This document shows, one piece after another, positions 1-19,454 of a DNA stretch of 34,613 bases. Each line of letters begins with the position of its first letter. The stretch's first letter is position 1. This DNA is from an uncultured SAR86 cluster bacterium. GTDB taxonomy: Bacteria; Pseudomonadota; Gammaproteobacteria; Magnimaribacterales; D2472. The notes below the pieces were generated by a model. The model saw only the letters and a list, made by a program, of their open reading frames with translations, ran no database searches and had not been told where the DNA came from. The position numbers were made by a program, and so were the translations under genes. The stretch is taken from positions 1 through 34,613 of the forward strand of contig CACHRR010000009.1 in NCBI GenBank assembly GCA_902582355.1, written 5' to 3'.

Positions 1-3000
1 TAACTGCAAGCGATGGAGTGAATTCAGCCACACAAAATATCACAGTTAACATAATCAACATAAATGATAATACTCCTGAAATTACCTCATCTTCTAGTTT
101 CTCAGTTGATGAAAATAACAATAGTATAGGGCAGCTAGAAGCTACAGATGCTGATGGTGATGACATAATTTATGCAGTAGACAACAATGTAGATCAAAAT
201 ATTGATGTCACAGTTGCAGCAAATAATAACGGTTCAGGCAATGTATATGTTATTAGTGGAGCTCAAAATAAATCATTAAATCTTCAAACAGGTAAAACAT
301 ATATCTTTAATCATCCAACAGGACACCCTCTGAGATTCTCAACCACAGCAGATGGCACTCATGGCGGAGGAGTTGAATATACAAATGGCGTAGACACAAG
401 TACAAACGGAATTACAAAAATAACAGTTACTGAAGATACACCTGGTACTTTATATTACTACTGCAGCATTCATTCTGGAATGGGTTCAAATGTATCAACA
501 GGTGTGAATAGTAATCCAATTTTAATTCAAGTAAATTCGAGTTCTGGGTCCTTAACTTTTAGTAGATCTCCTGATTTTGAAACCTTATCATTCTTCTCAG
601 CTAAGGCATCTGCTTCAGATGGCGAGAGAATAACATATCAGGATATTCAAGTAGATATAAATGATATAGACCCTGAAGGACCTGTTTTCACTTCATCATC
701 AACTTTTGTTGTAGATGAGAATGAGACATTTATTGGTCAGGTTACCGTTAGCAATAGTTCAAATACAATATTTTCTATTTCAGGAAACGAAATAAACATC
801 AATGAATCAACTGGCGACTTAACATTTATTGAAGAGGCTGATTATGAGGTTAAATCAAGTTATACAGCAACTGTTAGTGCTAGTGACGGAACAAATTCCA
901 CCGATCAAGTAATAACAGTAAATTTAAATAACTTAAATGATAATCGTCCTATCATTAATGAACAAACTTTTAATGTTGATGAAAATCAGACTTCTGTGGG
1001 AACTGTCATCGCTAGTGATGCAGATAATGACACATTAACTTATAGTACTAATAGTCCATATTTGAATATTGATTCAACTACAGGTGTCTTAACTTATAAA
1101 GAAGCTCCTGACTACGAAGGAGATTTCAAAAGTTATTCATTTTTTGTCAAAGTTAGTGATGGATCTTACGAAGAGAATGGATCGATGACAATAAATATTA
1201 ATAATCTTAATGATAATAGTCCTTCTTTTACATCTGGTGATTCAAGTTTCTCTGTTGATGAAAATCAAAATGCCATAGGACAAGTTTCAGCAACAGATGC
1301 TGATGGTGATACACCAATATTCAGTATTACAGGATCAGAAATAAATATTAATTCATCTACCGGTGTTTTAGAATTTGTAGATTCACCAGATTATGAGACA
1401 AAAAATCAATACTCTGAAACAATTACAGCAAGCGATGGTGAAAATTCGACAGAACTAGCAATAACCGTTTCGATTAATAATCTTGATGATAATAGGCCTG
1501 TATTCACCTCATCATCTACTTTTAGTGCTGAAGAAAATCAAAGCGCTATTGGAACTGTTCAAGCAACAGATGCAGATGGTGATACATTATCCTATTCTGT
1601 AACTTGTGGACATGATTGTGACTATGAAATGGATAGCTCAACAGGTGTTCTAACCTTTAGAAAGATTCCTAATTATGAGAGAAAAAATACATATACTGCT
1701 GATATTTATGCATACGACTCAGTAGACTCAACTCTTCAACAAGTTACAATTTCTATTACCGACGTAAATGATGTCACGCCTGTAATTACATCTTCATCAA
1801 CTTTTAGCGCAGATGAAAATCAAACTGCAATTGGAACTATCACTGCAAGTGATTGTGATGGTGTCATGTCCTGGGCATCAGATAGAGACTGTGAAGAAAC
1901 TGGACAAACTGAATTAACTTATAGTATTTCAGGTTCAGAAATTAATATTGATGCTACATCTGGAGTTATGACTTTTGTTTCAGAACCTGATTATGAAACC
2001 AACTCTAGTTATAGTGCTTCGGTTACAGTAAGTGATGGAACTTTCTCAGATACTGAAGATATTACTGTTTCAATAAATAATATAAATGATAACGGTCCTG
2101 AAATAACTTCTTCATCCACATTTAATGTTGATGAAAATGAGACTTCGATTGGAACTGTAACAGCAACTGATCTTGATAATGATAATTTGACATATAGCAT
2201 TTCAGGTTCTGAAATAAACATAAATGATTCAACAGGAGTATTGGTCTTCACTTCAGCTCCAGACTATGAAACTAAAACTAGTTACAGCGCAACAGTTACT
2301 GTTACCGATGGAGATAATTCTGATTCTCAAGATATTACAATTTCTATAAATAATTTAAATGATAACGATCCAGTAATTACTTCATCCTCAACATTTACTG
2401 TTAATGAAAATCAACTATCTATTGGAGAAATTACAGCTACTGATGATGATGATGACTCTTTAACTTATGAGCTTTTAAATAATCCTCAAAAATTTACTTT
2501 AAATGAGTCTACTGGTGCTTTGGCTTGGAGTGATATTTCATACTCTGATTGGGAGTTAGGAATGACTTATGCTGATCCTGGAGGGTTTGATAGCAGACAA
2601 AGACAAAACGATACACTTCAAATTAGAGTTTCAGATGGTGAAAACGTTTCAAATATTCAAGATATAACAGTTGTTCTTAATGATTTGAATGATGAGTTTC
2701 CTGATATAAGGAATCCAGGTCCATTTACACTATTAGAGGAGTCTGTAAACTGTAACAGTGATTACGGAGGAACAAGCACTCATTATGTTTCAATTTGGGA
2801 TGAAGATACTCGAGCTAGTAATTTAACAGCATCAATTGCAAATGAAGATCAAGCAAATTTTTCTATTGAGTCAACTTTAACTTTAGAAGGAGATTTAAAT
2901 CTAAGAGTGATACCTCAATGTGCTCAAGCATTAGATAGAGAGTCAGGAGAAACCTCTGATTTTGATTTAATTGTTTCAGATGGCATTAATTCAAGCACAA

Positions 3001-6000
3001 GAACAATTACTTATTCACTAGCTGATATTAATGATAATGCCCCTCAAATTACTTCATCTGAAACCTTCAATGTTGATGAAAAAACCACCACGCCAGATAA
3101 TCTTGGTTTGAAAGTTGCAGATATTACATTCTCCGATTTTGATAAGAATACTTATTATGATACCAGCGGAGACAGGTCTCGTTACAGTAGATGGGATTGC
3201 ACTGCGTCAGGAGCAGATGCAAATCTTGTTGCTGATACCTATTACCGTGAATTTAATGCTCTATATGTTGCTGAAAGATCCTGTGAATTACTTTTAACTG
3301 ATACAGGTGCAAATTATGAGAATAAATCGACGTTAAACTTCACATTCACAATAAGTGATGGTACTTACAGTGATTCAAAAGATATGCAAATTACTCTTAA
3401 TGATGTCAATGAAGCTCCTTCAATTACTTCAGGAAGTTCATATAATGTCACAGAAAATGAATCATATATTGGGACAGTGTCTGCTACTGATCCTGAAGGA
3501 GATTCTATAACTTGGTCAATTTCAGGATCAGAAATCACAGTTGATTCATCAACCCAAACATTAAGATTTGTAAGCGCTCCTGATTATGAAACTAAATCAA
3601 CGTATACAGCAACACTGACAGCAAGTGATGGAACGCTTAGCACTACAAAAGACATAACAATTAATATTCTTAATATCCCTGATGTAACAGGTTTAGCATA
3701 TACCTCAAGATACACAGTAATGGACAGCGACATTCCAAATACTGATTATTTCCCTTACGCAAGTAATGACACGGTATCTGATGCTCAAGCTCTAATAAAT
3801 CCTAGTCAAGTAATCGGCTTTGTTGGTGGAAGTGATACTATCGACGTATTTAGTGTTTCTACCACTTCAAGTATGTACGTCAATCTTGATGTTGTTGATT
3901 ATGTTAACGATACAAAAGAACTTAGAGTGCTTATTTATGAATCAGATGGAACTTCTAAAGACTTTAGTTATACATCCGGTTCTGTAGAAAATAATATGAC
4001 AATATTACTTCCAAGCAGTGGAGATTATTTGATTGCAGTTGATGATCTATATGGCAGTTCAAAATATATTTTAACTCTTGGACAGCGATACGAAACTTCA
4101 ACCTTAGAAAAGGCAACTGACTTTATTCCTGATTATATTCAAGACGAATTTGTAGGCTATAAATCTGAAATTTTACCGAGCATTACAGAGAATAACGAAT
4201 TAAGTACCAAACAAATCGATCAAATTAATATTAATAAAGAAATACTATTTAACCTTACTGGCACAAGGTTTGATGAACCTGGAGTTAAGAAAATTACTAA
4301 ATCAGATGTTAACACTGAAATGCTTCCATTATTTGATTCAGGAGATCTAAATCTTTCGCTTTCTCAAAGTGGGCTTGACCCGCTGCCAGCGCGTCAACTT
4401 AAGTATCTTGAAGATTGGTCCTTCTTACAAACTATTAAGTCTTTAGACAAAGATGTAATCTTCGATTTCAATTATGAATTTGAACTTGCTTCTTTCTCAA
4501 GAGATCCATTATTTTCATATCAATGGAATTTGCAAAGAGTAAATTTAGAGGCAGCCCTAAACGGTATCGGCCAAACCGTTAATGATATTGCAGTTGCAGT
4601 TATTGATACTGGTGGTCCAACACCAGGATCAACAGCTTGGAACGAAAGTAATTTGATTGATGGAGGTTTTGACTTTATGTATGGAGATAGCAATTCAATT
4701 GATTACTACGCAACATCTGACTATACAGGAAGTGACAGTTCTCACGGTACTCATGTATCAACAACTATTGCTGCTAAAAATAATGGAACAGGCATCAACG
4801 GTTATGCAGTAAAAGCATTAAATATTAATGTTTTTGATCAAAATCCTAATAAATCTAAAAGAACTGACTCAACAAAAGTTATTAATGCTATTTTATATTC
4901 AGCTGGGCTCTCGAACTCATCTGGTTCTGTAGCACCAACAACAACACCAATTAAAGTAATAAACTTAAGTTTAAAATCATCTGGATCATCTTTATATCTA
5001 AGTAATTTATGTCAAGCTGTTACTGATGCTGTTTCACAAGGTATTACTGTAGTTGCAGCTTCAGGTAACGACCAGGATACTGATCCTGGTTCAATTTCTT
5101 ATCCAGCATCATGCTCAGGAGCTATATCTGTAGGAGCATCAAACTCTAATGGAGAAATCACAACTTATTCTCAACAAAATGCTTATGTTGATATTGCAGC
5201 ACCAGGTGGAGATGTTATTGACCGAGATGGGAATGGATATGCAGATCTAGTGCCCGCATATGTTGATAATGACAGAATTGTTGGCTTGCAAGGAACTTCA
5301 ATGGCTTCACCTCAGGTTTCTGCGGCGATAGCATTAATGTATGCAGTTGATAACTCTATGTCACCAAGTAAAGTAATAACAATGCTTGAAGCTGGTGAGT
5401 TATCAGATGACAGAGGTACTTCAGGGCGGGATGATGTTTTTGGTTATGGCGAATTAAACGTTGCCAAAGCTATTGAGAATGTTCTTGAGGACATTAGTAG
5501 TTCAACAACTTATGCGTATACTTCATTGCCTTATTTAGATTTTGGAAGTAATTCTACACAGTTATCAATTGATCTTAATAAAGTTGGAGATGGAAGCTTA
5601 TCAGTTTCAAATCTTACAGCAGATAGTGCAACAGGACTAAGTTACAATAATTCAGGTGCTGACAGTAATGGCTTTGGCACCTATACAATATTTATTGATA
5701 GGTCCTCTATACCTAATGGTGAGTTTTCAAATACTATTTACTTTAATCTTTCTGATGGAGAAAAAGCAGCTGTTAGAATTTACTATAATGTAGGTACATT
5801 AAGATCTAGAGCAAATATCGGCAAAGTATACATAGGTATGTATGATGCAGATACAGGCGAGCTATGGGGCTCACTTGAATCAGAGGTAGATGGGTATATT
5901 GCTTTCATTGCTCGTGATGTTCCTCAAGGTAATTATTATATTTTAACTTCAACAGATATCGATGATGATAATACAGTTTGTGATTATGCTGAGTTATGTG

Positions 6001-6290
6001 AATATTACCCACCGCTGAATAATACCGAAGAATATTTCTCAGTTGGGAATCCTAACGCTGATGTTGAAGGTAATCTGGGAGACTACGAAATATTTCTTAC
6101 TCCTAGAGTTAGATATGGAGGTATTAATGCTGCCTCAGTTTCATCTTCTTCTAATGATGATAATGTTAAAAATAAAAGTCAAAAAATTAAGTCATTCGAT
6201 GGAAAAGGAAAAATTATCATTAATGACTTTTTAGGTTATCCTATAGAAAATAAAGTTATTAAAGGCGATAATGTCTTTGAAACTAATTAA
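1..6290 (+). CDS. Giant cadherin-repeat protein with C-terminal S8 (subtilisin-type) protease, 5'-partial
   Basis: Reading frame is open from base 3 (T-A-S-D-G, the tail of a cadherin-like repeat), so the start lies upstream; the GTG at 18 is not a likely start. Residues below count from that GTG. Residues 21-1221 are 11 cadherin-like repeats (VDEN, ATDADGD, PDYETK, ASDG and NLNDN motifs), the first split by a cupredoxin-like domain (about 61-171). Then come a PPC-like domain (about 1243-1356), an I9-like propeptide (about 1368-1500) and an S8 domain with Asp1530 (VIDTG), His1576 (HGTHV), Asn1684 (SGN) and Ser1761 (GTSMA). The tail (1835-2030) resembles C-terminal domains of other gammaproteobacterial S8 proteases and has an EF-hand-like DIDDDNTVCDYAE loop. 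All cysteines except the cupredoxin Cys149 occur in local pairs, fitting an oxidised extracytoplasmic protein. Known family role: secreted proteolysis. Inferred role: surface or extracellular adhesion-protease. Secretion route unseen because the N-terminus is missing. Confidence 0.93.
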   Translation, partial: TASDGVNSATQNITVNIININDNTPEITSSSSFSVDENNNSIGQLEATDADGDDIIYAVDNNVDQNIDVTVAANNNGSGNVYVISGAQNKSLNLQTGKTYIFNHPTGHPLRFSTTADGTHGGGVEYTNGVDTSTNGITKITVTEDTPGTLYYYCSIHSGMGSNVSTGVNSNPILIQVNSSSGSLTFSRSPDFETLSFFSAKASASDGERITYQDIQVDINDIDPEGPVFTSSSTFVVDENETFIGQVTVSNSSNTIFSISGNEININESTGDLTFIEEADYEVKSSYTATVSASDGTNSTDQVITVNLNNLNDNRPIINEQTFNVDENQTSVGTVIASDADNDTLTYSTNSPYLNIDSTTGVLTYKEAPDYEGDFKSYSFFVKVSDGSYEENGSMTININNLNDNSPSFTSGDSSFSVDENQNAIGQVSATDADGDTPIFSITGSEININSSTGVLEFVDSPDYETKNQYSETITASDGENSTELAITVSINNLDDNRPVFTSSSTFSAEENQSAIGTVQATDADGDTLSYSVTCGHDCDYEMDSSTGVLTFRKIPNYERKNTYTADIYAYDSVDSTLQQVTISITDVNDVTPVITSSSTFSADENQTAIGTITASDCDGVMSWASDRDCEETGQTELTYSISGSEINIDATSGVMTFVSEPDYETNSSYSASVTVSDGTFSDTEDITVSINNINDNGPEITSSSTFNVDENETSIGTVTATDLDNDNLTYSISGSEININDSTGVLVFTSAPDYETKTSYSATVTVTDGDNSDSQDITISINNLNDNDPVITSSSTFTVNENQLSIGEITATDDDDDSLTYELLNNPQKFTLNESTGALAWSDISYSDWELGMTYADPGGFDSRQRQNDTLQIRVSDGENVSNIQDITVVLNDLNDEFPDIRNPGPFTLLEESVNCNSDYGGTSTHYVSIWDEDTRASNLTASIANEDQANFSIESTLTLEGDLNLRVIPQCAQALDRESGETSDFDLIVSDGINSSTRTITYSLADINDNAPQITSSETFNVDEKTTTPDNLGLKVADITFSDFDKNTYYDTSGDRSRYSRWDCTASGADANLVADTYYREFNALYVAERSCELLLTDTGANYENKSTLNFTFTISDGTYSDSKDMQITLNDVNEAPSITSGSSYNVTENESYIGTVSATDPEGDSITWSISGSEITVDSSTQTLRFVSAPDYETKSTYTATLTASDGTLSTTKDITINILNIPDVTGLAYTSRYTVMDSDIPNTDYFPYASNDTVSDAQALINPSQVIGFVGGSDTIDVFSVSTTSSMYVNLDVVDYVNDTKELRVLIYESDGTSKDFSYTSGSVENNMTILLPSSGDYLIAVDDLYGSSKYILTLGQRYETSTLEKATDFIPDYIQDEFVGYKSEILPSITENNELSTKQIDQININKEILFNLTGTRFDEPGVKKITKSDVNTEMLPLFDSGDLNLSLSQSGLDPLPARQLKYLEDWSFLQTIKSLDKDVIFDFNYEFELASFSRDPLFSYQWNLQRVNLEAALNGIGQTVNDIAVAVIDTGGPTPGSTAWNESNLIDGGFDFMYGDSNSIDYYATSDYTGSDSSHGTHVSTTIAAKNNGTGINGYAVKALNINVFDQNPNKSKRTDSTKVINAILYSAGLSNSSGSVAPTTTPIKVINLSLKSSGSSLYLSNLCQAVTDAVSQGITVVAASGNDQDTDPGSISYPASCSGAISVGASNSNGEITTYSQQNAYVDIAAPGGDVIDRDGNGYADLVPAYVDNDRIVGLQGTSMASPQVSAAIALMYAVDNSMSPSKVITMLEAGELSDDRGTSGRDDVFGYGELNVAKAIENVLEDISSSTTYAYTSLPYLDFGSNSTQLSIDLNKVGDGSLSVSNLTADSATGLSYNNSGADSNGFGTYTIFIDRSSIPNGEFSNTIYFNLSDGEKAAVRIYYNVGTLRSRANIGKVYIGMYDADTGELWGSLESEVDGYIAFIARDVPQGNYYILTSTDIDDDNTVCDYAELCEYYPPLNNTEEYFSVGNPNADVEGNLGDYEIFLTPRVRYGGINAASVSSSSNDDNVKNKSQKIKSFDGKGKIIINDFLGYPIENKVIKGDNVFETN
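78..3680 (+). repeat. Array of 11 cadherin-like repeats (protein-level tandem repeat)
   Basis: Each unit is roughly 85-125 codons and follows one pattern: TSSSTF-x-VDEN, IG-x-V-x-ATDADGD, an ININ-x-STGVL strand, PDYETK, ASDG and a closing NLNDN-x-P linker. Units vary in sequence. Units 5, 6, 9 and 10 carry extra loops with one cysteine pair each, and unit 9 is the most divergent. In this fold the DEN, DxD and NDN acidic residues normally bind calcium between domains, so the array is probably a calcium-stiffened stalk. At least one further unit lies off the left edge. Unequal recombination among units could change the repeat number. Confidence 0.85.
198..530 (+). other. Cupredoxin-like domain nested in cadherin repeat 1
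   Basis: About 110 residues interrupt the first repeat between its YAV-DNN strand and its VNSSSGSLTF strand. The segment has HPLRFSTT with a candidate copper-ligand His103, then LYYYCSIHSGMGS giving Cys149, His152 and Met155. The C-x2-H-x2-M spacing equals the ligand loop of amicyanin, a type 1 copper protein. The domain resembles one I recall from virion proteins of marine phages. Copper binding is inferred; the fold could also be a copper-free cupredoxin used for binding. Confidence 0.7.
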
Positions 6291-6342
6291 TTATTTTAAA
6301 GATTTTTCTTTGATAAAAAATTCAGTTAAGTCTGTTCAAAGT

Positions 6343-9300
6343 ATGCGTAATTATTCCTTTGTTTTCATTACTTTATTTATTATCGCTGCATGTGGCGGCG
6401 GTGGTGGCGGCGGCGGCGGAAGTGGAGATTCAGCTCCAACTCCATCACCAACGGTAAATCTCTCTGCACAACCAACCTCGGTTTTACTTGGCAATACTTC
6501 TACACTCACTTGGTCTTCAACCAATGCCTCTTCCTGTTCAGCTAGCTGGACTTCTTCAACCTCTACTTCAGGTTCAGAAGCTGTAACAATAAATGAACCA
6601 GGAAATAATAATTTTTCAATTTCTTGTAGCGGAGCAGGTGGAAGTGGTTCAGCCTCTGTTACGGTTGAAGGTTACAGAAATACCGATGGCGTAGTTGTTG
6701 ATGGATATATTTCTGGTGCTGATGTATTCATCGATGAAAACGATAACTGGTCTGCCGATTCAACAGAAAGCTCTTCAACTTCTGATAATGACGGTAAGTT
6801 TACTATTCAGTATTCAAATGGAAATTTAGTTTCTTTAGGTGGAACAGATATAGATTCTCAGACTCTTTTAGATAATTTACTCTTAACTCATAAATTAACT
6901 GGTCACACTGACTTTAAAGCGGTTACTCCAGTAACTTCTGTTGTGGCCTTTATGACAGATGCTTCTCTAATAAATGTAGCATTAGGAATAGACTCATCTA
7001 TAGATGTTTTCACCTTTGATCCGGTTGCTAACAAAGGCGATGGTGGGATTAATGACTATTTATATGAGAAAGGAAATCAACTAACTGTTTTAGCTTTTGC
7101 ACTACAAAATATTACTAACAACTTAAATACAACAAGCGAAACTACCCAAGATTACTTTAAAGCTATTACCGAGGAAATTGAAAAAGAATATACTGAAACA
7201 AACACAAAAGTTAACATTGAAACCGAAGCTTTTATAACAAAAGTTTTTGATAATATTGTTGCAGCCAAATCAGCATCTATAGAAGAAACATCTAAATCAA
7301 ATACTATTACTGCTTTAGCTGGAATGCTGCCAATTATCGAGGTTAAATCCTCTGATGATTTAACCACTTCAGTTATTCGGTTTGCACTTTCAACCTTACA
7401 AACCGACATCCAGACTATCGCCAATGGATCAGCATCAGCTGATATTATCAATAGTTACACAGTGGATATCCTCAACTTTATTGCTGATGATCAGAATATA
7501 GATGTGAGGGAAATAACACCAAATGTTATTGCTATAGCAGATACTGTTACAACGCAGGAAGATACACCTATAACAATTGATTTTCTTGCAAATGATACAT
7601 ATGCACCAGCATTATCAAGCATTTCATTTGAAAGTGCATCTAATGGAACAGCTTCATTGGATCAATCTAATCCTGAGCAAATTATTTATACACCTGACTC
7701 AAATTTTTATGGAACTGATGAATTTTCATATACTATTACTCAAGGAGAAAAAACTGCTACTGCGGTCATAACTGTTTCTATTGAGTCTGTTAATGATTTG
7801 CCAACAATTGATATTGCCTCCACTCTTCAAGTTGATGAAAATCAAAAGGCTATAACAGCTATATCTATTTCAGATGATGATGGAGATGATTTAACTATAA
7901 CTCTTGGAGGTGCCGATGCAGATAGTTTTAATCTTTCAAATGAAAATGTTCTAACTTTTATAAATGCACCAGATTATGAGACTAAAACAAGTTATTCGTT
8001 TACTATTTCTGCAACTGATGGAATAGATACAGTAAGTAAGGATATTTCTGTTCTCATAAATAATCTTAATGATAATCCACCAATTTTTAACATTGGTGAT
8101 AATTTAAATATTGAAGAAAATATCAAAACAATTACCACAGTAACTGCTTTAGATGCAGATGGTGATTCTCTCGTTTATAGTCTAAAAAGTAATGTAGGTG
8201 ATAATAATCAACTTAATATATCTTCAGATGGCATACTATCTTTTATCACTGCTGCAGACTATGAAACCAAGACCTTATATACCGCAGTAATATTGGTTAC
8301 TGACGGTGTATTCAATGATGAGGTTACTATCACAATCAATATTACCGATGCTAATGATAATACTCCAGTTATAGTTACTTCAAGTTTTTCATTAGACGAA
8401 AATAAATCAACTGCCGGTTCTATAGAGGCAACAGATGCAGATACGAACACGGTGTTTTCATATTCAGTTACTGGCACCGATGCAAGCTTTGTATCGGTTA
8501 GTGAAACCGGTAATATAATTTTTCTTGAGTCACCTGACTATGAAACAAAAAGTTCTTATCTTGTGGATTTGAATGTTTCAGATGGGTTGAATACAGCAAC
8601 TAAAGAGATAACTATAGAAATAAATAATATCCTGGAAGATATTATTTCAAATTCATTTACGATAACAGATGGCACATCCTCCCAAGCCCCTATATTGAAT
8701 GTAAATTTAGTACTTGACGAACTTTCAGATGCAAAAAAAGTTTATGCAGTGTTATCTGCCATCCAAACTTTGGAGGGGTTAGAGTGTGCTGGAAGTGGTC
8801 CTGCTATGGAACTTGAAAAAACTAACTCAACAACTTGGTCATTAACTAAAGAGTTAAATAATGAATTAGCAGACATATGTGAATATAACGTAAATTATTA
8901 TTTTAATCTCTATGATGTTGAATCTGAGACAGCTCCACCAACAGCAGGGATTCATTTATCATCAGGTAATAAAAGCATGCACAAAAATTTACAGTGGTCC
9001 AATGATTACACTAGTTCTGAAACAAATAAGATTAGCATAATAAATTCTCAGGCTGTAAATACAGTAACGACTGTGGATTATAATGATCTTAGCTATGCAT
9101 ATATGATCTATGTGCCTTCAGGGGATTATTCTGAATCTTGTAATACTGATACTTTTGTAAATAATAATGGGGAATCGAGCCCACTTTTGGCATATCCAGA
9201 ATATGATTGTTTTAGAAATACAGTTACTTCAAACATTTCTGATGATTCAAATAATATTGAATTTGATTTCTATATCTATTCTTTTGATGAGTTGGAATTT

Positions 9301-12300
9301 GTTAGTGCTTATTTATTTGGCGTATTTAAAGAAGGATTTACTAACACTAATGGAAGAATGAATAGTTCTGAAATTCAAGCAGAACTTGGTGAAATTGATT
9401 CTTCAAATCCAAAAATAGCAAGATTAAGATTTGAAATTGATATTGAAGCGGCTATTCGTTCAGGCGCTGCATTTTATGGTGAATATTCTTTTGTTATAAA
9501 TCCAGTTACAAAATCTTATTTGAGTAATCAAGCTTCTTTAAGTTCTGGTAATAAAGCTGTTTACTATATAGATTCTGAAAGAGCAGATATGTTGCCACCT
9601 GAAGTTGTATCTGGATCTTTTTCAAATTATTCAAATTCATCTTATCCGCAAAGAGATTATGTGAAATTTGATTTTACTATTAGAAATGATGCTGACTCTC
9701 TTGGAAATATAACTTCAGTAAGAGATTTGTGGATAGATACCTTAGGTCCTACCTGTAATAATGAAATTTTTTATGTAAGAGATGATCTTGATGGCAAAAT
9801 TGATGTATCAACTATAAATTTGTCAGCTACTATACCTATTTTGAAAAATGAACTAGGAACCTATCAAATTGTATCAATGAATATAAATGATTTTGGTCTA
9901 GCTGAATCATACTATTCTCAAGCTTCTAGCGATTCTGTTGGTAGCCATCATCCTTTAATAGGTACAACATTTGTTGCTGGTGACGGACAAGCACCTTCAT
10001 GTCCTTTGTGGCTAAATTATAATGTCTTCGACACTATAACAATAGATGAAAATGAAACAACAGTTGGTACATTTACTGCAGAGGGATCTCTAGCAGATAC
10101 TGTAATTTATACCTTAGAAGATAGTGAGTACATATCCTCTGAAGGTTCAATAAATCAAATTTCAACAAAATTACAAATAAATGAATTAACTGGTGAGATT
10201 TCATATATCAACCCACCAGATTATGACAAATTAGAAGATCTAGATTCTGGGCATTTTCAAGTTCGTGCAACATCAGAGCTAGACAGTTCGCTCTCGAGAA
10301 TAATTCAACGTGAAATAGTATTAGTTAATTTAAATGATAATTTTCCAGAAATTATTACTACTCAGATTTCAGCTAATGAAAACTCTACTGAAATAGGTTG
10401 TATATCTCATTCTGATAAAGATGTGAATATTGAAGCAGTTTTTTCATGTTTATTTGCTATTAATCCTAATGATGGTAGCTTAAGTGAATTAGCTTATAAT
10501 GGTGATATTACTTTTTCTGTTTCTGGTGAGAATATTCTTATAAATTCTGCTACTGGATCTCTGTCATTTGAGAATGCCCCTGATTATGAGGAAAGGACAA
10601 CCTACACAGCAACTGTAAGCATTAGTGATGGTGAAAATTCTACATCTGCTGATATTACAATTAATGTTGTAGATTTAAATGACAATGCACCAGTAGTAAC
10701 ATCAAATAAATCGTATTCTGTAAAAGAAAATCAATCGTCTGGTGGAGTAATTCAGATATTTGATCCTGATACAGTAAATGATCCATTTACTTATACGATT
10801 GACGATACATATGAAGACGGCTCTATGTTTTCAATTAATTCAAATGGCGAACTAATATTTATTTCAAACCCAGATTATGAAACAAAAAATTCTTATAAGG
10901 TTAAAGTAACAATAAATGATGGTGTTTTCGATGTAACAGAGGAGTTTTCAATAACGCTTGAGGATGTTATTGCTGAGGCTATCCCAACCTATGCATCATT
11001 AAATTTATTGCCACAAGATACAAATTCCACCTCTGTTCAACTTCTTAGTTCTGTGATTGATGGCAGAACTGCGACATATTCTATTGAGAATGATCAATTG
11101 TATGGAACTGCAACACTAGATCCTTTAACAGGAATAATAAGTTATACAACTGATCATTCTGACGTTGCTGTAGAAAAAATTAGATTTAGAGTAAATGATG
11201 GTGTTATTGATGATGGTGTGGCAGATCTTACTCTTAATTTAAATACTGATCCTTTATATAAACATACTTGGTATCTTCATAATACTGGCCAAACAGGATT
11301 TGCATCACTTCCAGGTACTCCCGGCGAAGATTTAAATACTGATTTAACAATTTCAAGTGGTTTTACTGGTAAGGGTGTTGGAATTAATGTTGTTGACGAA
11401 GGACTTGAAATAGCACATGAAGATTTGATTGATAATATCAAAGAAGGTTATTCATATGATTGTCGAAATCAAGACACAGATCCAACTCTATCAACACCAT
11501 ATGGTGATCATGGTACGAGTGTTGCTGGGATTATAGCTGCAAAAGGTTGGAACAATATTGGAGGAAGGGGTGTAGCTCCTGATGCTGACTTAATTGGTTA
11601 TAATTATTTAGATTATGCAACTTCATCATGCCAAGCATGGGCGTTGGGCTATCTTGATGACTATTCAAGTACAATGGACATCTTTAATATGAGTTATGGA
11701 CGCGTACTTTATATTGGTTCAAATTCTTTCAGCTTTCCTTCACAAAATATATTAAGCGAATTAGACGACACAGTTCTTAAAAATGGAGTAAACAATTTAA
11801 GGAATGGCAAAGGAGCTATATACGTACAATCAGTAGGTAATGATTTTGATACAGGCGCTACCAATGGAAGAGGCTGTGGGGAGCCAGAAGTTGACGATCC
11901 AAGTGCAATGGGATGTAGTATTGCATTTCATGATGAGTTTACTACAGTGCCATATGTCATTGAAGTTGCGGCTTTGAAAGCAACAGGTGTTAAATCATCT
12001 TATTCTACATCTGACCCTTCTATTTGGATTTCGGGATTTGGTGGTGAATATGGTTTTACTGAGGAATATGAACCAGGTCTTATAGATCTTGGATATGAAC
12101 CAGCAATACTAACAACAGACCAAACAGGATGTGAAGCTGGGTATGTTAGCTACTACTACTATCCATCAAGTAGTTTTGAAGATTGCTGGGGCTATATTGA
12201 AGGACCACATCCAGAAAACATTAACGGAAACTATACATCGACATTTGGTGGGACTTCCTCTGCAGCACCTTCTGTTGCAGGTGGAATAGCTGTCCTATTA

Positions 12301-13230
12301 GAGGCATATCCAGATTTAACTTGGAGAGATGTAAAACATATCATGGCTAGCACTGGAAGAAAAAGCGATCCTGAAAGGGCATATTCTAAAAATGGTTTAG
12401 TACAACATGATTGGATAACTAATGCTGCTGGTTACACACATCATTATTGGTATGGATTTGGTGCGTTTGATCTTGGAGCTGCAATTGATTTTGCTTCTAC
12501 TTATACTGCGGCATCATTAGGTACTTTCAATGAATTTGGTTGGAAAAAGGCAATACCCAAAGAAACTATTACTGTAAATGTTGCTCCAAATGCAACTGGA
12601 GCTGGTAATGTATTTGTTATAGATGGTATTCAAAGAAAATCACTTATTCTAAATGTAGGAACTACATATACATTCACTCACTCAAGTGCTCATCCATTAA
12701 GATTTTCAACTACTCCAAATGGAACTCATGACGGTGGTGTTGAATATGTAGAAGGAGTTACTAAGTCAAGTGGTATTACAACAATCAAAGTAACGGAAGA
12801 TACGCCAATCTTATATTATTATTGTGAAATACATTCTGAAATGGGCTCAGATATATCCTATGAGAATAGTTTGAATCAAAACTTAAATTTATCGTTACCA
12901 AGTTTTTCATCTGTAGAAGATACTATTCCATATTTAGCAGAAACAACTGGAAATTTTACAGAGTTTATACAGATAAAAATTTACCTAGATAAGGAAATAC
13001 CAAAAGATATTGGAATGCATTTAATATCTCCTCAAGGAACTGAAATGAGTATTTTACAACCTTTTTCAAATGTATCTGGCAATCCATCTGGTGATTGGTT
13101 TGTGATGGGCGTATCAGGTTTTTATGGAGAGCCAATTAACGGAGACTGGACCCTAAAAGTTACAGACTATACAGATAACTCAGATACTGGAATTCTTATT
13201 GATTGGGAGATTAACATTTTTGGAAATTAA
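6343..13230 (+). CDS. Giant lipoprotein with Ig, cadherin repeats, kexin-type S8 protease, cupredoxin and P domain
   Basis: The start at 6343 gives a compact lipoprotein signal, MRNYSFVFITLFIIAAC, with lipobox Cys17 followed by nine Gly; an in-frame ATG at 6271 would add 24 residues and overlap the previous gene by 20 bases. Counting from 6343: Ig-like domain (about 40-108), a D-G-x-I-x-G-A-x-V-x-I-D domain (about 116-165), VCBS-like repeat (about 395-485), three cadherin-like repeats (490-765), an unassigned 455-residue region, three more repeats (1226-1541), a VCBS-like repeat (1546-1632), an S8 kexin/furin-like peptidase (about 1635-2055; Asp1685, His1723, Asn1833, Ser1972 in GTSSAAP), a cupredoxin-like domain (2075-2173) and a C-terminal P/Homo B domain (2183-2295). 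No propeptide precedes the peptidase. Probably a surface-anchored endopeptidase; substrate unknown. It is followed one base later by a gene encoding a propeptide-like protein. Confidence 0.93.
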   Translation: MRNYSFVFITLFIIAACGGGGGGGGGSGDSAPTPSPTVNLSAQPTSVLLGNTSTLTWSSTNASSCSASWTSSTSTSGSEAVTINEPGNNNFSISCSGAGGSGSASVTVEGYRNTDGVVVDGYISGADVFIDENDNWSADSTESSSTSDNDGKFTIQYSNGNLVSLGGTDIDSQTLLDNLLLTHKLTGHTDFKAVTPVTSVVAFMTDASLINVALGIDSSIDVFTFDPVANKGDGGINDYLYEKGNQLTVLAFALQNITNNLNTTSETTQDYFKAITEEIEKEYTETNTKVNIETEAFITKVFDNIVAAKSASIEETSKSNTITALAGMLPIIEVKSSDDLTTSVIRFALSTLQTDIQTIANGSASADIINSYTVDILNFIADDQNIDVREITPNVIAIADTVTTQEDTPITIDFLANDTYAPALSSISFESASNGTASLDQSNPEQIIYTPDSNFYGTDEFSYTITQGEKTATAVITVSIESVNDLPTIDIASTLQVDENQKAITAISISDDDGDDLTITLGGADADSFNLSNENVLTFINAPDYETKTSYSFTISATDGIDTVSKDISVLINNLNDNPPIFNIGDNLNIEENIKTITTVTALDADGDSLVYSLKSNVGDNNQLNISSDGILSFITAADYETKTLYTAVILVTDGVFNDEVTITINITDANDNTPVIVTSSFSLDENKSTAGSIEATDADTNTVFSYSVTGTDASFVSVSETGNIIFLESPDYETKSSYLVDLNVSDGLNTATKEITIEINNILEDIISNSFTITDGTSSQAPILNVNLVLDELSDAKKVYAVLSAIQTLEGLECAGSGPAMELEKTNSTTWSLTKELNNELADICEYNVNYYFNLYDVESETAPPTAGIHLSSGNKSMHKNLQWSNDYTSSETNKISIINSQAVNTVTTVDYNDLSYAYMIYVPSGDYSESCNTDTFVNNNGESSPLLAYPEYDCFRNTVTSNISDDSNNIEFDFYIYSFDELEFVSAYLFGVFKEGFTNTNGRMNSSEIQAELGEIDSSNPKIARLRFEIDIEAAIRSGAAFYGEYSFVINPVTKSYLSNQASLSSGNKAVYYIDSERADMLPPEVVSGSFSNYSNSSYPQRDYVKFDFTIRNDADSLGNITSVRDLWIDTLGPTCNNEIFYVRDDLDGKIDVSTINLSATIPILKNELGTYQIVSMNINDFGLAESYYSQASSDSVGSHHPLIGTTFVAGDGQAPSCPLWLNYNVFDTITIDENETTVGTFTAEGSLADTVIYTLEDSEYISSEGSINQISTKLQINELTGEISYINPPDYDKLEDLDSGHFQVRATSELDSSLSRIIQREIVLVNLNDNFPEIITTQISANENSTEIGCISHSDKDVNIEAVFSCLFAINPNDGSLSELAYNGDITFSVSGENILINSATGSLSFENAPDYEERTTYTATVSISDGENSTSADITINVVDLNDNAPVVTSNKSYSVKENQSSGGVIQIFDPDTVNDPFTYTIDDTYEDGSMFSINSNGELIFISNPDYETKNSYKVKVTINDGVFDVTEEFSITLEDVIAEAIPTYASLNLLPQDTNSTSVQLLSSVIDGRTATYSIENDQLYGTATLDPLTGIISYTTDHSDVAVEKIRFRVNDGVIDDGVADLTLNLNTDPLYKHTWYLHNTGQTGFASLPGTPGEDLNTDLTISSGFTGKGVGINVVDEGLEIAHEDLIDNIKEGYSYDCRNQDTDPTLSTPYGDHGTSVAGIIAAKGWNNIGGRGVAPDADLIGYNYLDYATSSCQAWALGYLDDYSSTMDIFNMSYGRVLYIGSNSFSFPSQNILSELDDTVLKNGVNNLRNGKGAIYVQSVGNDFDTGATNGRGCGEPEVDDPSAMGCSIAFHDEFTTVPYVIEVAALKATGVKSSYSTSDPSIWISGFGGEYGFTEEYEPGLIDLGYEPAILTTDQTGCEAGYVSYYYYPSSSFEDCWGYIEGPHPENINGNYTSTFGGTSSAAPSVAGGIAVLLEAYPDLTWRDVKHIMASTGRKSDPERAYSKNGLVQHDWITNAAGYTHHYWYGFGAFDLGAAIDFASTYTAASLGTFNEFGWKKAIPKETITVNVAPNATGAGNVFVIDGIQRKSLILNVGTTYTFTHSSAHPLRFSTTPNGTHDGGVEYVEGVTKSSGITTIKVTEDTPILYYYCEIHSEMGSDISYENSLNQNLNLSLPSFSSVEDTIPYLAETTGNFTEFIQIKIYLDKEIPKDIGMHLISPQGTEMSILQPFSNVSGNPSGDWFVMGVSGFYGEPINGDWTLKVTDYTDNSDTGILIDWEINIFGN
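6394..6420 (+). repeat. Nine-codon glycine tract (GGY)n after the lipobox cysteine
   Basis: Nine consecutive Gly codons, mostly GGC/GGT, directly follow the lipid-anchor Cys codon. The tract is a GC-rich island in AT-rich DNA. Runs of Gly after the lipobox are common in gammaproteobacterial lipoproteins and act as a flexible tether. As a near-perfect trinucleotide repeat it may change length by slippage, but only in frame. Confidence 0.8.
7798..8640 (+). repeat. Three cadherin-like repeats in the lipoprotein protease (first block)
   Basis: Three units show the same VDEN/IEEN/LDEN, DADGD, PDYETK or ADYETK, ATDG and NNLNDN or DANDN landmarks as the neighbouring giant protein. They follow a VCBS-like repeat and lead into a region with no recognised repeat. 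Confidence 0.75.
10018..10965 (+). repeat. Three cadherin-like repeats in the lipoprotein protease (second block)
   Basis: Units carry IDEN, ANEN and KEN starts, PPDYDK, APDYEE and NPDYETK centres, and NLNDN and DLNDN linkers. They are separated from the first block by about 455 residues of unassigned sequence and lead, through a VCBS-like unit, into the S8 peptidase. Confidence 0.75.
12565..12861 (+). other. Second copy of the cupredoxin-like domain, between S8 peptidase and P domain
   Basis: The segment repeats the landmarks of the domain at 198-530: GNVFVIDG, HPLRFSTT, GTHDGGVEY, VTEDTP and LYYYCEIHSEMGS. Candidate copper ligands are His2117, Cys2161, His2164 and Met2167, counting from the start at 6343. 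A hand alignment gives about 60 identical positions of some 96 with the other copy. Kexin-type proteases normally have the P domain directly after the catalytic domain, so this is an insertion. Confidence 0.7.
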
Positions 13231-13231
13231 C

Positions 13232-13906
13232 ATGAAAAAATATTCACTAAGTTTTGTTTTTGTATTAATTTATTTTATAGCTTTAAATGATATTGCGGCT
13301 CAAGAACAAAAAGATATACCAATATCTGTTTCAAAACCTATATATATAAAATCAGATATTACTTCTGATATTGAAATTGAAGAAAATATTAAGAAAAAAC
13401 AATATCGTTTATTGCCAGACTCTTTTGTATATAGAATCAATACTAATTTAAATAGAAATCAAATGGCACTAAAAATCATGGATTCAGAGAGTATAAGAGA
13501 AATTAAAAATAACAAAAATATTGTAGGAAAATATCTTTTTGCTTATTCTAATCAAGAAGCTCAAAATCTACCTGAATTAAATTCATCGAGATTAACTATT
13601 GGTAACAAAATAATAGATATCGAACCACAATTAATTAACGAATTTAGAGTTATTATTGACGAAGATGATTTAGTCTATTTTACAGACGGATCTCTTTTAA
13701 TAAAATTTAATGAAAGTGCAAACTTTGCTGAATTTGCATCTTTTAATAATTTAATGCTAAAGAAAGAATTTATTGAATTAAATATGGGTCTTTATGTTTA
13801 TGACGACTTCACTACTTTAGAAAACAAAATAACTAATTTAGAAAAAATGGAATCAGTATCTGAAGTTCAATATGATGTAATTAACCCTTATATAACACCT
13901 CATTAA
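13232..13906 (+). CDS. Exported protein resembling a free-standing S8 protease propeptide
   Basis: The ATG at 13232 lies one base after the previous stop and gives 224 residues; an earlier in-frame ATG (13199) would hide the signal peptide and is rejected. Residues 1-23 form a signal peptide (two Lys, hydrophobic core, IAA before Gln24). Residues about 148-220 read like the N-terminal propeptide of subtilases: F-T-D-G-S-L-L-I-K-F, a Leu-rich middle, G-L-Y-V-Y, then a helix and S-V-S-E-V-Q-Y-D-V-I-N-P-Y, matching the usual V-x-Y-A-E-P-N-Y end. No protease domain follows. The upstream protease lacks a propeptide and starts with D-P-L-Y, where a normal propeptide would end. Inferred role: folding helper or inhibitor acting in trans. 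Residues 25-147 are unassigned. There are no cysteines. The 3' end overlaps hisC by 26 bases tail-to-tail. Confidence 0.85.
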   Translation: MKKYSLSFVFVLIYFIALNDIAAQEQKDIPISVSKPIYIKSDITSDIEIEENIKKKQYRLLPDSFVYRINTNLNRNQMALKIMDSESIREIKNNKNIVGKYLFAYSNQEAQNLPELNSSRLTIGNKIIDIEPQLINEFRVIIDEDDLVYFTDGSLLIKFNESANFAEFASFNNLMLKKEFIELNMGLYVYDDFTTLENKITNLEKMESVSEVQYDVINPYITPH

Positions 13907-17038: not shown

Positions 17039-17610
17039 AACATACTAAAAAAACTATTCAAAAATTTCATACCATTAACAGATGATTTTTCTGGATGAAA
17101 TTGAACACCATAAAAGTTATCTTTGTTAACGCAAGAGCTAAATTTAATACCATATTTTGTTTTAGCAAATGTAGATTTACTTATCTCCGCATAATAACTG
17201 TTTGCAAAATAATAATATCCATTACAATCACTGAAACTACCATCCTCAAACATGACTTTATTCCAACCCATATGAGGAATAGTTAAATCTGAATTAACAA
17301 ATTTTTTAATTGTTCCTGGAAGTATTCCTAGACATTCAGTATCTTCTTCTTCTGAAAATTCATAAAAGATTTGCATACCTACACAAATTCCAAGTATGGG
17401 ATTAGAATAATTTTTAATACTTTCAACAAGATCTTGTTTTTTTAAATTATTCATAACATTTTTTGCTGCGCCAACCCCAGGCAAAAGAATTGCTTTAGAA
17501 TTTTTAACATCTTTTTTAGTTTTACAAATTTTGTATTCTATTTCTAATTTATCAATCGCATATGTTACTGATTGAAGATTGGCTCCACCACAATCGATAA
17601 CTGATATCAT
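17035..17610 (-). CDS. hisH: Imidazole glycerol phosphate synthase, glutamine amidotransferase subunit
   Basis: A 191-residue class I glutaminase. Visible: MISVIDCGGANLQSV (usual D-x-G-x-G-N-L-x-S form with one change), P-G-V-G-A, the nucleophile elbow G-I-C-V-G-M-Q with the catalytic Cys, and G-V-Q-F-H-P-E-K-S with the His and Glu of the triad. It releases ammonia from glutamine and channels it to HisF. It is four bases overlapped with hisDB upstream and four with hisA downstream. Confidence 0.95.
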   Translation of the reverse strand: MISVIDCGGANLQSVTYAIDKLEIEYKICKTKKDVKNSKAILLPGVGAAKNVMNNLKKQDLVESIKNYSNPILGICVGMQIFYEFSEEEDTECLGILPGTIKKFVNSDLTIPHMGWNKVMFEDGSFSDCNGYYYFANSYYAEISKSTFAKTKYGIKFSSCVNKDNFYGVQFHPEKSSVNGMKFLNSFFSML

Positions 17611-19454
17611 AATATTCCTTTTGTTGAGGTTACCACTTCAGAATTGATTTCAATACTCTCTTTAAACGCCTTACCAAGACATTTAAATAAAACTTCTATT
17701 AAGTGATGACTGTTAGAACCATCAATATTTATGTGACAAGTAAACTTTAGATTTTTAATAAAAGTATCTAAAAAGTGATTTAACATCTCTGTGGGAAAAT
17801 CTCCAACAAAGTCATTAAGTTTTGGAATATTCAAATTTAAATTACTTCTTGAGCAAAGATCAATATCTATTTTAGCGACAGACTCATCCATCACAATGGT
17901 TTGAGAGGAATACCTATTTATATTTTCTCTATCTGCTAGGCTGTCTGATATTACTTGACCCAAAATAATAGCTGTATCTTCAATAGTATGGTGAAGATCA
18001 ATTTCTAAATCGCCTTTAGACCTCAAAAATAGATTAATATTTGAGTTCTTTGCAAATTGTTCAAGCATATGATCTAAGAAATTTATTCCTGTTTGTATTT
18101 CATATAAACCCTCACCATCCAAATCAACAGAAGCATAGATTGAAGTTTCCTTTGTTTGTCTTCTTAAAAAAGAAGATCTTGAAGAAGTAGTACTATTTTG
18201 TTTTCTCATTTCAACCGACAAACCATGAGCATCTAGATTTTCGATCTCACTCAGTTTTATCACTTTGTCAGATAGATAATTGAAAGCTGTATTATCTGTT
18301 TTTTGAAATGAAAGCTTTTTCATGAAATCATTTACAGATAAGCCGGAATTAGTTTTGGCCCATCCAGATGTTGGTAAAACATGATTTGTACCAGATGCAT
18401 AGTCTCCAAATGCTACGGGTGACATATTTCCACAAAATACAGAACCAGCATTATTGATTGAGTCGATATACTTAGGAAAATCATCATCTAATAAAACGAG
18501 ATGTTCTGGAGCACAGTCATTAATTTTGTCTACGATATCATTATCTGACTTGCATTTAACCATAATAATATTTTTAAAAGCCTCATCTATAAGATCATTC
18601 CTAGTAAGTTTTTTTGATAGATCTTCAATTTCTGTTTTTATATTATTTAAGATTTTTTTTGATTTTGATAACACAAATGCACATGAATCAGTTCCATGTT
18701 CTAATTGAGATAAAGCATCTATAGCAGCAATAGAAACATTTTCTTTATTATTTGTGACAACCATGACCTCACTTGGCCCAGCATATAAATCGATAGAAAC
18801 TTTATTACTTACATATTTTTTTGCCTCAGCGACATATGTGTTACCAGGACCAAAAATTTTATCAACTTTTGGTATTCCCAGATAACCATTAGCCATAGAA
18901 AGAATTGCTTGAGCACCTCCAATTTTATATATGTTTGAAATATTTAGCTGATTTGCTAACCAAAGTATAGCAGGGTGCACTTTTCCATTTTTTAATGGCG
19001 GCGTACAAATAGTTATTTCTGAACAGTTAGCTGTTAATGCAGGAATAACCTGCATTAAAAATGATGATACTAAAGGGGCAGTGCCTCCCGGAACATATAA
19101 GCCCACTTTAGAAATAGGAACAAATTTATCCCAAATGCTTAAACCATTAATTGGGCTAATTGTTTTACTTAAAGAATTGAGTTGTGACTTAGAGACAAAT
19201 GAAATATTTTTAATTGCTTCGTACAAAGCAAATTTCTCTTTATCACTTAGATAATTAGATGATTCTTTGAATTCTTTTTTTGATACTTTGAGACTAACTA
19301 AGTTTTTTAAGTTAAGGCGTTTATTTATTTTTTTTAGGCCTATGAATGAATCATTTTTCAAAATTTCATCAAAATCTTTTACGATGCTTGAAACTTCTGT
19401 ATTTAAATTATATGTTCTCCAACAAATATTTTTTTTTGACTCTATAATTTTCAT
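17607..19454 (-). CDS. hisDB: Fused histidinol dehydrogenase - imidazoleglycerol-phosphate dehydratase
   Basis: One 615-residue frame carries two enzymes. Residues 1-415 are HisD, which oxidises histidinol to histidine with NAD. Zinc ligands and catalytic residues match E. coli HisD: Gln250 and His253 (SQLEHGTDS), Glu317-His318 (APEHL), Asp351 (GDYASGTNHVLPT) and His410 (LDAHGLS). Residues about 430-615 are the HisB dehydratase domain: D-H-M-L at 461-464, HHTIED at 488-493, NSHHLIE at 581-587 and the typical TSTKGIL end. The usual DLSGRP is DLCSRS here. A Ser/Thr-rich linker (about 420-429) joins them. There is no stop between them, and the internal ATG (18209) has no visible Shine-Dalgarno. 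No histidinol-phosphatase domain is attached. HisDB is not among the common his fusions (hisIE, hisNB, HIS4, HIS7). Confidence 0.94.
   Translation of the reverse strand: MKIIESKKNICWRTYNLNTEVSSIVKDFDEILKNDSFIGLKKINKRLNLKNLVSLKVSKKEFKESSNYLSDKEKFALYEAIKNISFVSKSQLNSLSKTISPINGLSIWDKFVPISKVGLYVPGGTAPLVSSFLMQVIPALTANCSEITICTPPLKNGKVHPAILWLANQLNISNIYKIGGAQAILSMANGYLGIPKVDKIFGPGNTYVAEAKKYVSNKVSIDLYAGPSEVMVVTNNKENVSIAAIDALSQLEHGTDSCAFVLSKSKKILNNIKTEIEDLSKKLTRNDLIDEAFKNIIMVKCKSDNDIVDKINDCAPEHLVLLDDDFPKYIDSINNAGSVFCGNMSPVAFGDYASGTNHVLPTSGWAKTNSGLSVNDFMKKLSFQKTDNTAFNYLSDKVIKLSEIENLDAHGLSVEMRKQNSTTSSRSSFLRRQTKETSIYASVDLDGEGLYEIQTGINFLDHMLEQFAKNSNINLFLRSKGDLEIDLHHTIEDTAIILGQVISDSLADRENINRYSSQTIVMDESVAKIDIDLCSRSNLNLNIPKLNDFVGDFPTEMLNHFLDTFIKNLKFTCHINIDGSNSHHLIEVLFKCLGKAFKESIEINSEVVTSTKGIL

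Follow-up and report, generated by a model that had tools for sequence, protein, structure and literature searches.

S8 proteases are almost always made together with a folding helper in cis, and a 2022 survey presents the Aeromonas sobria protease ASP as the exception (PMC9549277). The arrangement of ASP with a separately encoded partner, ORF2, was established by the reports of Okamoto 2000, Nomura 2002, and Kobayashi 2015. ORF2 is described as being required for ASP maturation and as placing its C terminus (Gln-Pro-Lys) at the catalytic site, in contact with the catalytic center, with an IC50 of 84 nM; further holders of pairs of this type are named in Vibrio, Shewanella, Chromobacterium, and Pseudoalteromonas (PMC5638518). 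A further likeness is found in the PopC-PopD pair of Myxococcus xanthus, where a subtilisin is likewise held by a separate, complex-forming protein (PMC6434023).

The window analyzed here is one entire contig (CACHRR010000009.1; 34,613 nucleotides) of the 966-kb, 80%-complete genome of an uncultured SAR86 cluster bacterium (assembly GCA_902582355.1). It encodes two large S8 proteins in tandem on the forward strand, the first in an open reading frame (ORF) at 3-6290 that is truncated by the contig start and the second in an ORF at 6271-13230 (2,319 amino acids); their S8 domains are the two found in a search of this 80%-complete genome. The TAA stop codon of the second protease is followed by a single base and then by the ATG of an ORF at 13232-13906, also on the forward strand, which predicts a protein of 224 amino acids counted from that ATG. 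An earlier note, made from the sequence alone, had drawn attention to this order and one-base spacing, and both ORFs are present as it described. The best reading is that this pair belongs to the already published ASP-ORF2 arrangement. Like the A. sobria system (PDB 3wqb), it combines an S8 domain and a P-domain in a protease with no propeptide detected in cis and a partner directly downstream, and the two partners share a similar fold (predicted for that of the window) and a tail with a penultimate proline. The differences lie in the protease, which here is a lipoprotein of giant size that carries cadherin repeats and a cupredoxin-like insert, whereas ASP is reported as a secreted extracellular protease (PMC5638518), and in the partner, which on its own sequence falls below the ORF_2_N model of the ORF2 family. 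Canonical S8 propeptides (PF22148; 1spb_P) resemble the window partner in predicted fold and topology, and four of its relatives pass the PF22148 cut-off, but they are cleaved N-terminal segments, whereas the partner is a separate exported protein whose gene lies behind that of the protease. PopC, unlike the window pair, is described as having no signal peptide and as being held back from secretion by PopD (PMC6434023).

The 2,319-amino-acid protein (6271-13230) begins with a lipobox (...FIIAAC, recognized by eye), continues with cadherin and Ig-type repeats (Pfam Cadherin and Big_9), and ends with the S8 domain, an insert, and the P-domain. The S8 catalytic domain extends over 11248-12510 (the latter limit being approximate) as judged from Pfam, a PDB match, and the family alignment A2, with the Peptidase_S8 match itself covering residues 1700-2032 (11368-12366; E value of 1.9e-33), and the P-domain (proprotein convertase P) occupies 12964-13215 (P_proprotein, residues 2232-2315; E value of 1.7e-12). 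The nearest solved relative by sequence is ASP (3hjr/3wqb; E value of 2.7e-55), followed by furin (8.8e-32), and the predicted structure of a SAR86 relative (L091) likewise has ASP as its top Foldseek match (4.2e-43), with a structural alignment Z score of 45.7 over 508 residues and a root mean square deviation of 2.1, compared with a Z score of 41.7 over 453 residues for furin. On the basis of these matches, we assign the window protease to the ASP subgroup of S8 enzymes with a P-domain. The insert of about 100 amino acids between the two domains (12560-12870, limits approximate) is present in 2 of the 15 rows of alignment A2, those of the window and L034, and looks cupredoxin-like by eye. 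A segment of this appearance, with the pattern HPLRFST...YYYC.IHS.MG, is present in both giant S8 proteins (12560-12870 and within ORF 3-6290), and look-alikes precede the S8 domain in three relatives (L037, L038, and L040), of which L040 and L037 match Pfam Copper-bind with E values of 0.034 and 0.11, both below its cut-off. A copper site beside the protease is possible.

The catalytic domain opens with D-P-L-Y-K-H-T-W immediately after an Ig-like repeat, and no Pfam propeptide family matches the 2,319-amino-acid protein. The repeat that leads into the catalytic domain also yields no propeptide match in Pfam; it resembles Big_9 (E value of 0.0017, below the family cut-off). The claim that the S8 domain is entered from a repeat without an intervening propeptide agrees with the Pfam search. 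The relatives show a similar picture. Of 20 relatives retrieved from the order, 18 have a readable catalytic start of the form D-P-x-x...W, which is preceded, as judged by eye, by an Ig-like or cadherin repeat, a proline-rich linker, or almost nothing; in one of the relatives (L036), a proline-rich linker of about 25 amino acids is all that separates the lipobox from the catalytic start. The precatalytic stretches of 10 of these relatives matched no Pfam propeptide family at an E value of ≤1. In the wider survey described below, the N termini of the loci cited were assessed by eye, and several proteins of Xanthomonas and Lysobacter begin about 28 to 50 residues ahead of the catalytic domain, a length that includes the signal peptide, so that an S8 propeptide of about 75 residues would find no room there. 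No fusion of a propeptide with the protease was noticed in the N-terminal stretches inspected by eye for part of the loci. The window protease is predicted from its sequence to lack an N-terminal propeptide.

The partner (13232-13906) starts with a signal-peptide-like N terminus, recognized by eye, in line with its having been noted as an exported protein. An AlphaFold2 model from 24 rows predicts a domain with beta-alpha-beta-beta-alpha-beta topology for residues 148-215 (13673-13876) with block pLDDT values of 91 to 97, while the part between the signal peptide and residue 140 has values of 46 to 85 and the last residues have a low value of 58. In a Foldseek search of the PDB, the prosegment of subtilisin BPN' ranked first (1spb_P; E value of 0.0089, TM score by target of 0.68) and ORF2 second (3wqb_B; E value of 0.012, 20% identity), and further down the list came more prodomains of subtilases and furin, interspersed with unrelated folds. 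VIA-align gave middling Z scores, 7.3 for pro-subtilisin E and 5.7 for ORF2, and unrelated ferredoxin-like folds appear in the same Foldseek and VIA lists as the prodomains (VIA Z scores of 5.7 to 7.3). The earlier note had found residues 148 to 220 propeptide-like and had named a structure unrelated to the I9/subtilase propeptide fold as an outcome that would speak against its reading; instead, the domain is predicted to have the S8-propeptide fold over residues 148 to 215. On its own sequence, the window partner matched no Pfam propeptide family, neither ORF_2_N (PF18492) nor PF22148. Its PDB sequence and profile matches (BamA/YaeT, SWI1, TriTu immunity protein, and a terpenoid synthase) were at chance level, and a COBRA1 match in Pfam with an E value of 0.064 was dropped.

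Conservation is unevenly distributed along the partner. The N-terminal half shows little conservation, and the length before the propeptide-like domain ranges from 85 to 159 residues across the 24 rows of profile A5. In 65 of 70 partners, the stretch from the alignment column of Val208 of the window partner to the C terminus is 16 residues long, and 36 of the 70 have proline in the penultimate position. The window partner itself ends with Thr-Pro-His (tail I-T-P-H). Given the near-constant length of the tail, the penultimate proline, and the analogy with ORF2, residues 216-224 (13877-13903) are a candidate active-site plug.

A profile built from nine partners (A1) was searched against 203 genomes of the order at an E value of ≤0.01 and gave 22 matches, 21 of which are encoded immediately after an S8 protease of this type; the genes further out differ between these 21 loci. 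The remaining match (L032; E value of 0.0076) falls inside a gene resembling ketol-acid reductoisomerase and is spurious. The reverse search used a protease profile (A2) that spans the S8 domain and P-domain and was built from 15 proteases taken from beside partners. It gave 21 full-length matches in the 203 genomes, in exactly the 21 genomes that carry a partner, along with a fragment at a contig end whose neighbor would lie beyond the contig (G118) and eight remote S8 matches (E values of 4e-13 to 9e-11) from genomes in which no partner was matched. In one of the loci (L039/L074, G095), the protease match starts late and contains one in-frame stop near its beginning while the partner is open, and this protease copy may be frameshifted. 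In 369 genomes of the class, the window aside, profile A5 gave three matches outside the order, two of them directly behind an S8 protease; the third (L173) is weak, lies inside another gene, and is spurious, as are the weak matches within other genes in L010 and L011. A second outcome that would speak against the earlier note, homologues that never adjoin propeptide-less S8 genes, is likewise not what was observed: homologues do adjoin S8 genes in which no propeptide is detected.

Loci were also picked by a protease-only profile alone, and the best 80 of 210 relatives, corresponding to 79 loci, were surveyed; the best-matching named relatives among these 80 are SAR86 cluster bacteria. In 69 of the 79 loci, an ORF of 151 to 262 amino acids with a hydrophobic N terminus lies directly downstream, starting at −20 to +30 bases from the protease stop in 65 of the 69. 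The downstream ORF of L113, a 70th candidate, is unrelated by eye. Within the same loci, the ORF test was passed by 69 of the 76 proteases with enough downstream sequence and by 65 of 207 other large ORFs, and with the start restricted to −20 to +30 bases, it was passed by 64 of 76 and 27 of 207, respectively. The downstream-ORF test alone is lax, yet the excess at the proteases is clear, and the case for pairing rests mainly on the profile searches. An iterated profile (E value of <1e-3) ties 25 downstream and 3 upstream partners to the SAR86 set. The other downstream ORFs are supported by position, size, hydrophobic N terminus, and a common tail, with weak profile-profile scores, and we therefore do not claim homology for all 69.

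Several loci depart from the usual gene order. In three Bdellovibrio-type loci (L104, L113, and L114), a homologous partner lies upstream and overlaps the protease start; that of L114 was found with an E value of 1.2e-4 before it joined the profile, and those of L113 and L104 were found with E values of 6.3e-7 and 5.4e-6, respectively, with L114 already in it. This reversed gene order seems to be new. A partner-like ORF lies only upstream in L136 and L142, lies behind the second of two tandem proteases in L123, L132, and L148, and is cut by the contig end in L125. L143 has no partner-like ORF, and the region of its catalytic aspartate looks degenerate by eye. In Xanthomonas arboricola (L123 and L132, approximately 6965-8776), the second tandem protease opens with a segment reminiscent of the signal region in ORF2-type partners, by eye as if a deletion had joined partner and protease.

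The partners of the order are also connected by sequence to known families. PF22148, the fervidolysin N-terminal prodomain, gave five matches in the 203 genomes. Four of these, in G159, G067, G095, and G101, exceed the curated cut-off and are partner proteins at sites found with profile A1; the fifth (L167), below the cut-off, sits inside acetolactate-synthase-like genes and is spurious. One partner (L103, of the same genome contig type as L023) matches PF22148 with an E value of 7.9e-6 (26.6 bits; cut-off, 21) and ORF_2_N with an E value of 4.8e-6 (27.2 bits; under the cut-off of 29.2), and both matches cover the same residues, 110-170. A Shewanella partner (L126) matches ORF_2_N above its cut-off (2.3e-10), and that of L085 matches it below the cut-off (1.3e-5). 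At a lax limit (E value of ≤1), ORF_2_N is matched by 16 and PF22148 by 11 of the 70 partners. ORF_2_N (PF18492) has no match in the genome of the window, and in 274 genomes of the class it gave a single match (L033), below the cut-off, a level that 2 of 14 control genomes also reached. Comparison of the SAR86 partners with Xanthomonas, Burkholderia, and other partner ORFs by hhalign was weak (E values of 0.003 to 0.012, probabilities of 3.5 to 11.4%). The 2015 paper on ORF2 reportedly found no sequence relation of ORF2 to known propeptides. From the profile matches, the SAR86 partners seem to bridge the ORF2-type chaperones and ordinary S8 prodomains, a point that looks new, and such a link opens the origin of external chaperones to experimental test.

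The placement of the partner on the protease was modeled with AlphaFold2 as a read-through chain, in which the protease and partner of L091 were joined in frame, with the stop codon read as glycine (22 rows). The chain reached a pTM of 0.86, a value to be read with the fact that 3wqb (ASP-ORF2) may be in the AlphaFold2 training set, and block pLDDT values were 89 to 96 for residues 681-740 of the partner domain, dropping to 72 over the final ten positions. An undocked partner would give a pTM of about 0.73 or lower by rough estimate, and the higher value therefore hints that the partner has a defined placement on the L091 protease in the model.

Taken together, we consider it probable (roughly 0.85) that the 224-amino-acid protein is a trans-acting S8 propeptide of the protease encoded upstream, forming a pair of the ASP-ORF2 type. 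A role as chaperone and inhibitor is supported by the likeness to ASP-ORF2 and would run as follows. Both proteins would reach the periplasm via Sec, where the partner may bind the S8 domain in the manner of cis propeptides and aid its folding, and its tail, I-T-P-H, may act as a product-like inhibitor by filling the active site. Release or degradation of the partner would activate the protease, probably at or after outer-membrane anchoring. Since the protease is a lipoprotein whose catalytic domain sits atop a long stalk of repeats, a delay of activity until surface display is plausible.

A narrower role would be that of an immunity-type inhibitor, which shields the periplasm and is dispensable for folding. 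The near-constant tail length is what would be expected of an active-site plug, and free-standing inhibitors with the propeptide fold exist (POIA1, 1v5i_B, with a Z score of 5.8 to the partner). S8 enzymes usually need a folding step, however, and since none of the propeptides expected to provide it was detected in cis, another source of that step is expected; ORF2, moreover, is reported to do both jobs, chaperone and inhibitor, for ASP. We regard inhibition alone as unlikely. A role of the partner as a structural subunit or a substrate of the protease, with a ferredoxin-like domain by chance, would fit the commonness of the fold, the scores of unrelated ferredoxin-like proteins being close behind, and the N-terminal half with its poor conservation and no known role. 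Yet the proteins that exceed the PF22148 cut-off in the 203 genomes are partners exclusively, which makes this explanation very improbable. A partner that serves another enzyme could do so for the neighboring ORF 3-6290, which carries the one other S8 domain found in the 80%-complete genome, but with all but one of the partner matches in the order directly behind ASP-type proteases amid differing outer genes, such a service, or a coincidental adjacency, is barely credible.

The loci surveyed suggest that a detached propeptide is the rule rather than the exception for the ASP subgroup, uncultured SAR86 marine bacteria included. Among the top-ranked matches of a literature search, with most subscription papers outside its scope, no paper describes pairs of this type from SAR86, Xanthomonas, Lysobacter, or Bdellovibrio. 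A broader proposal, to which we would give even odds, is that ORF2-type chaperones are ordinary S8 propeptides that have turned into separate genes, and that Pseudomonadota and Bdellovibrionota share a kexin-like subfamily whose detached propeptide can be encoded upstream or downstream of the protease. In SAR86, detachment would allow a giant surface lipoprotein to carry the catalytic domain at its distal end, inactive until display.

The neighboring subtilisin-type protein (ORF 3-6290) had been credited with a cis propeptide at residues ∼1368-1500 (4110-4592), a stretch that has no Pfam match. The two PDB alignments listed for this protein cover the catalytic domain alone, and its relatives align mainly next to that domain. 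By eye, the stretch before the S8 domain is plausibly propeptide-like. The partner ORF overlaps a convergent his-type gene with its final 26 bases. Further downstream, a 615-amino-acid ORF on the reverse strand (17607-19454) reads by eye, from its translation, as a HisD-HisB fusion, with histidinol dehydrogenase first, followed by imidazoleglycerol-phosphate dehydratase.
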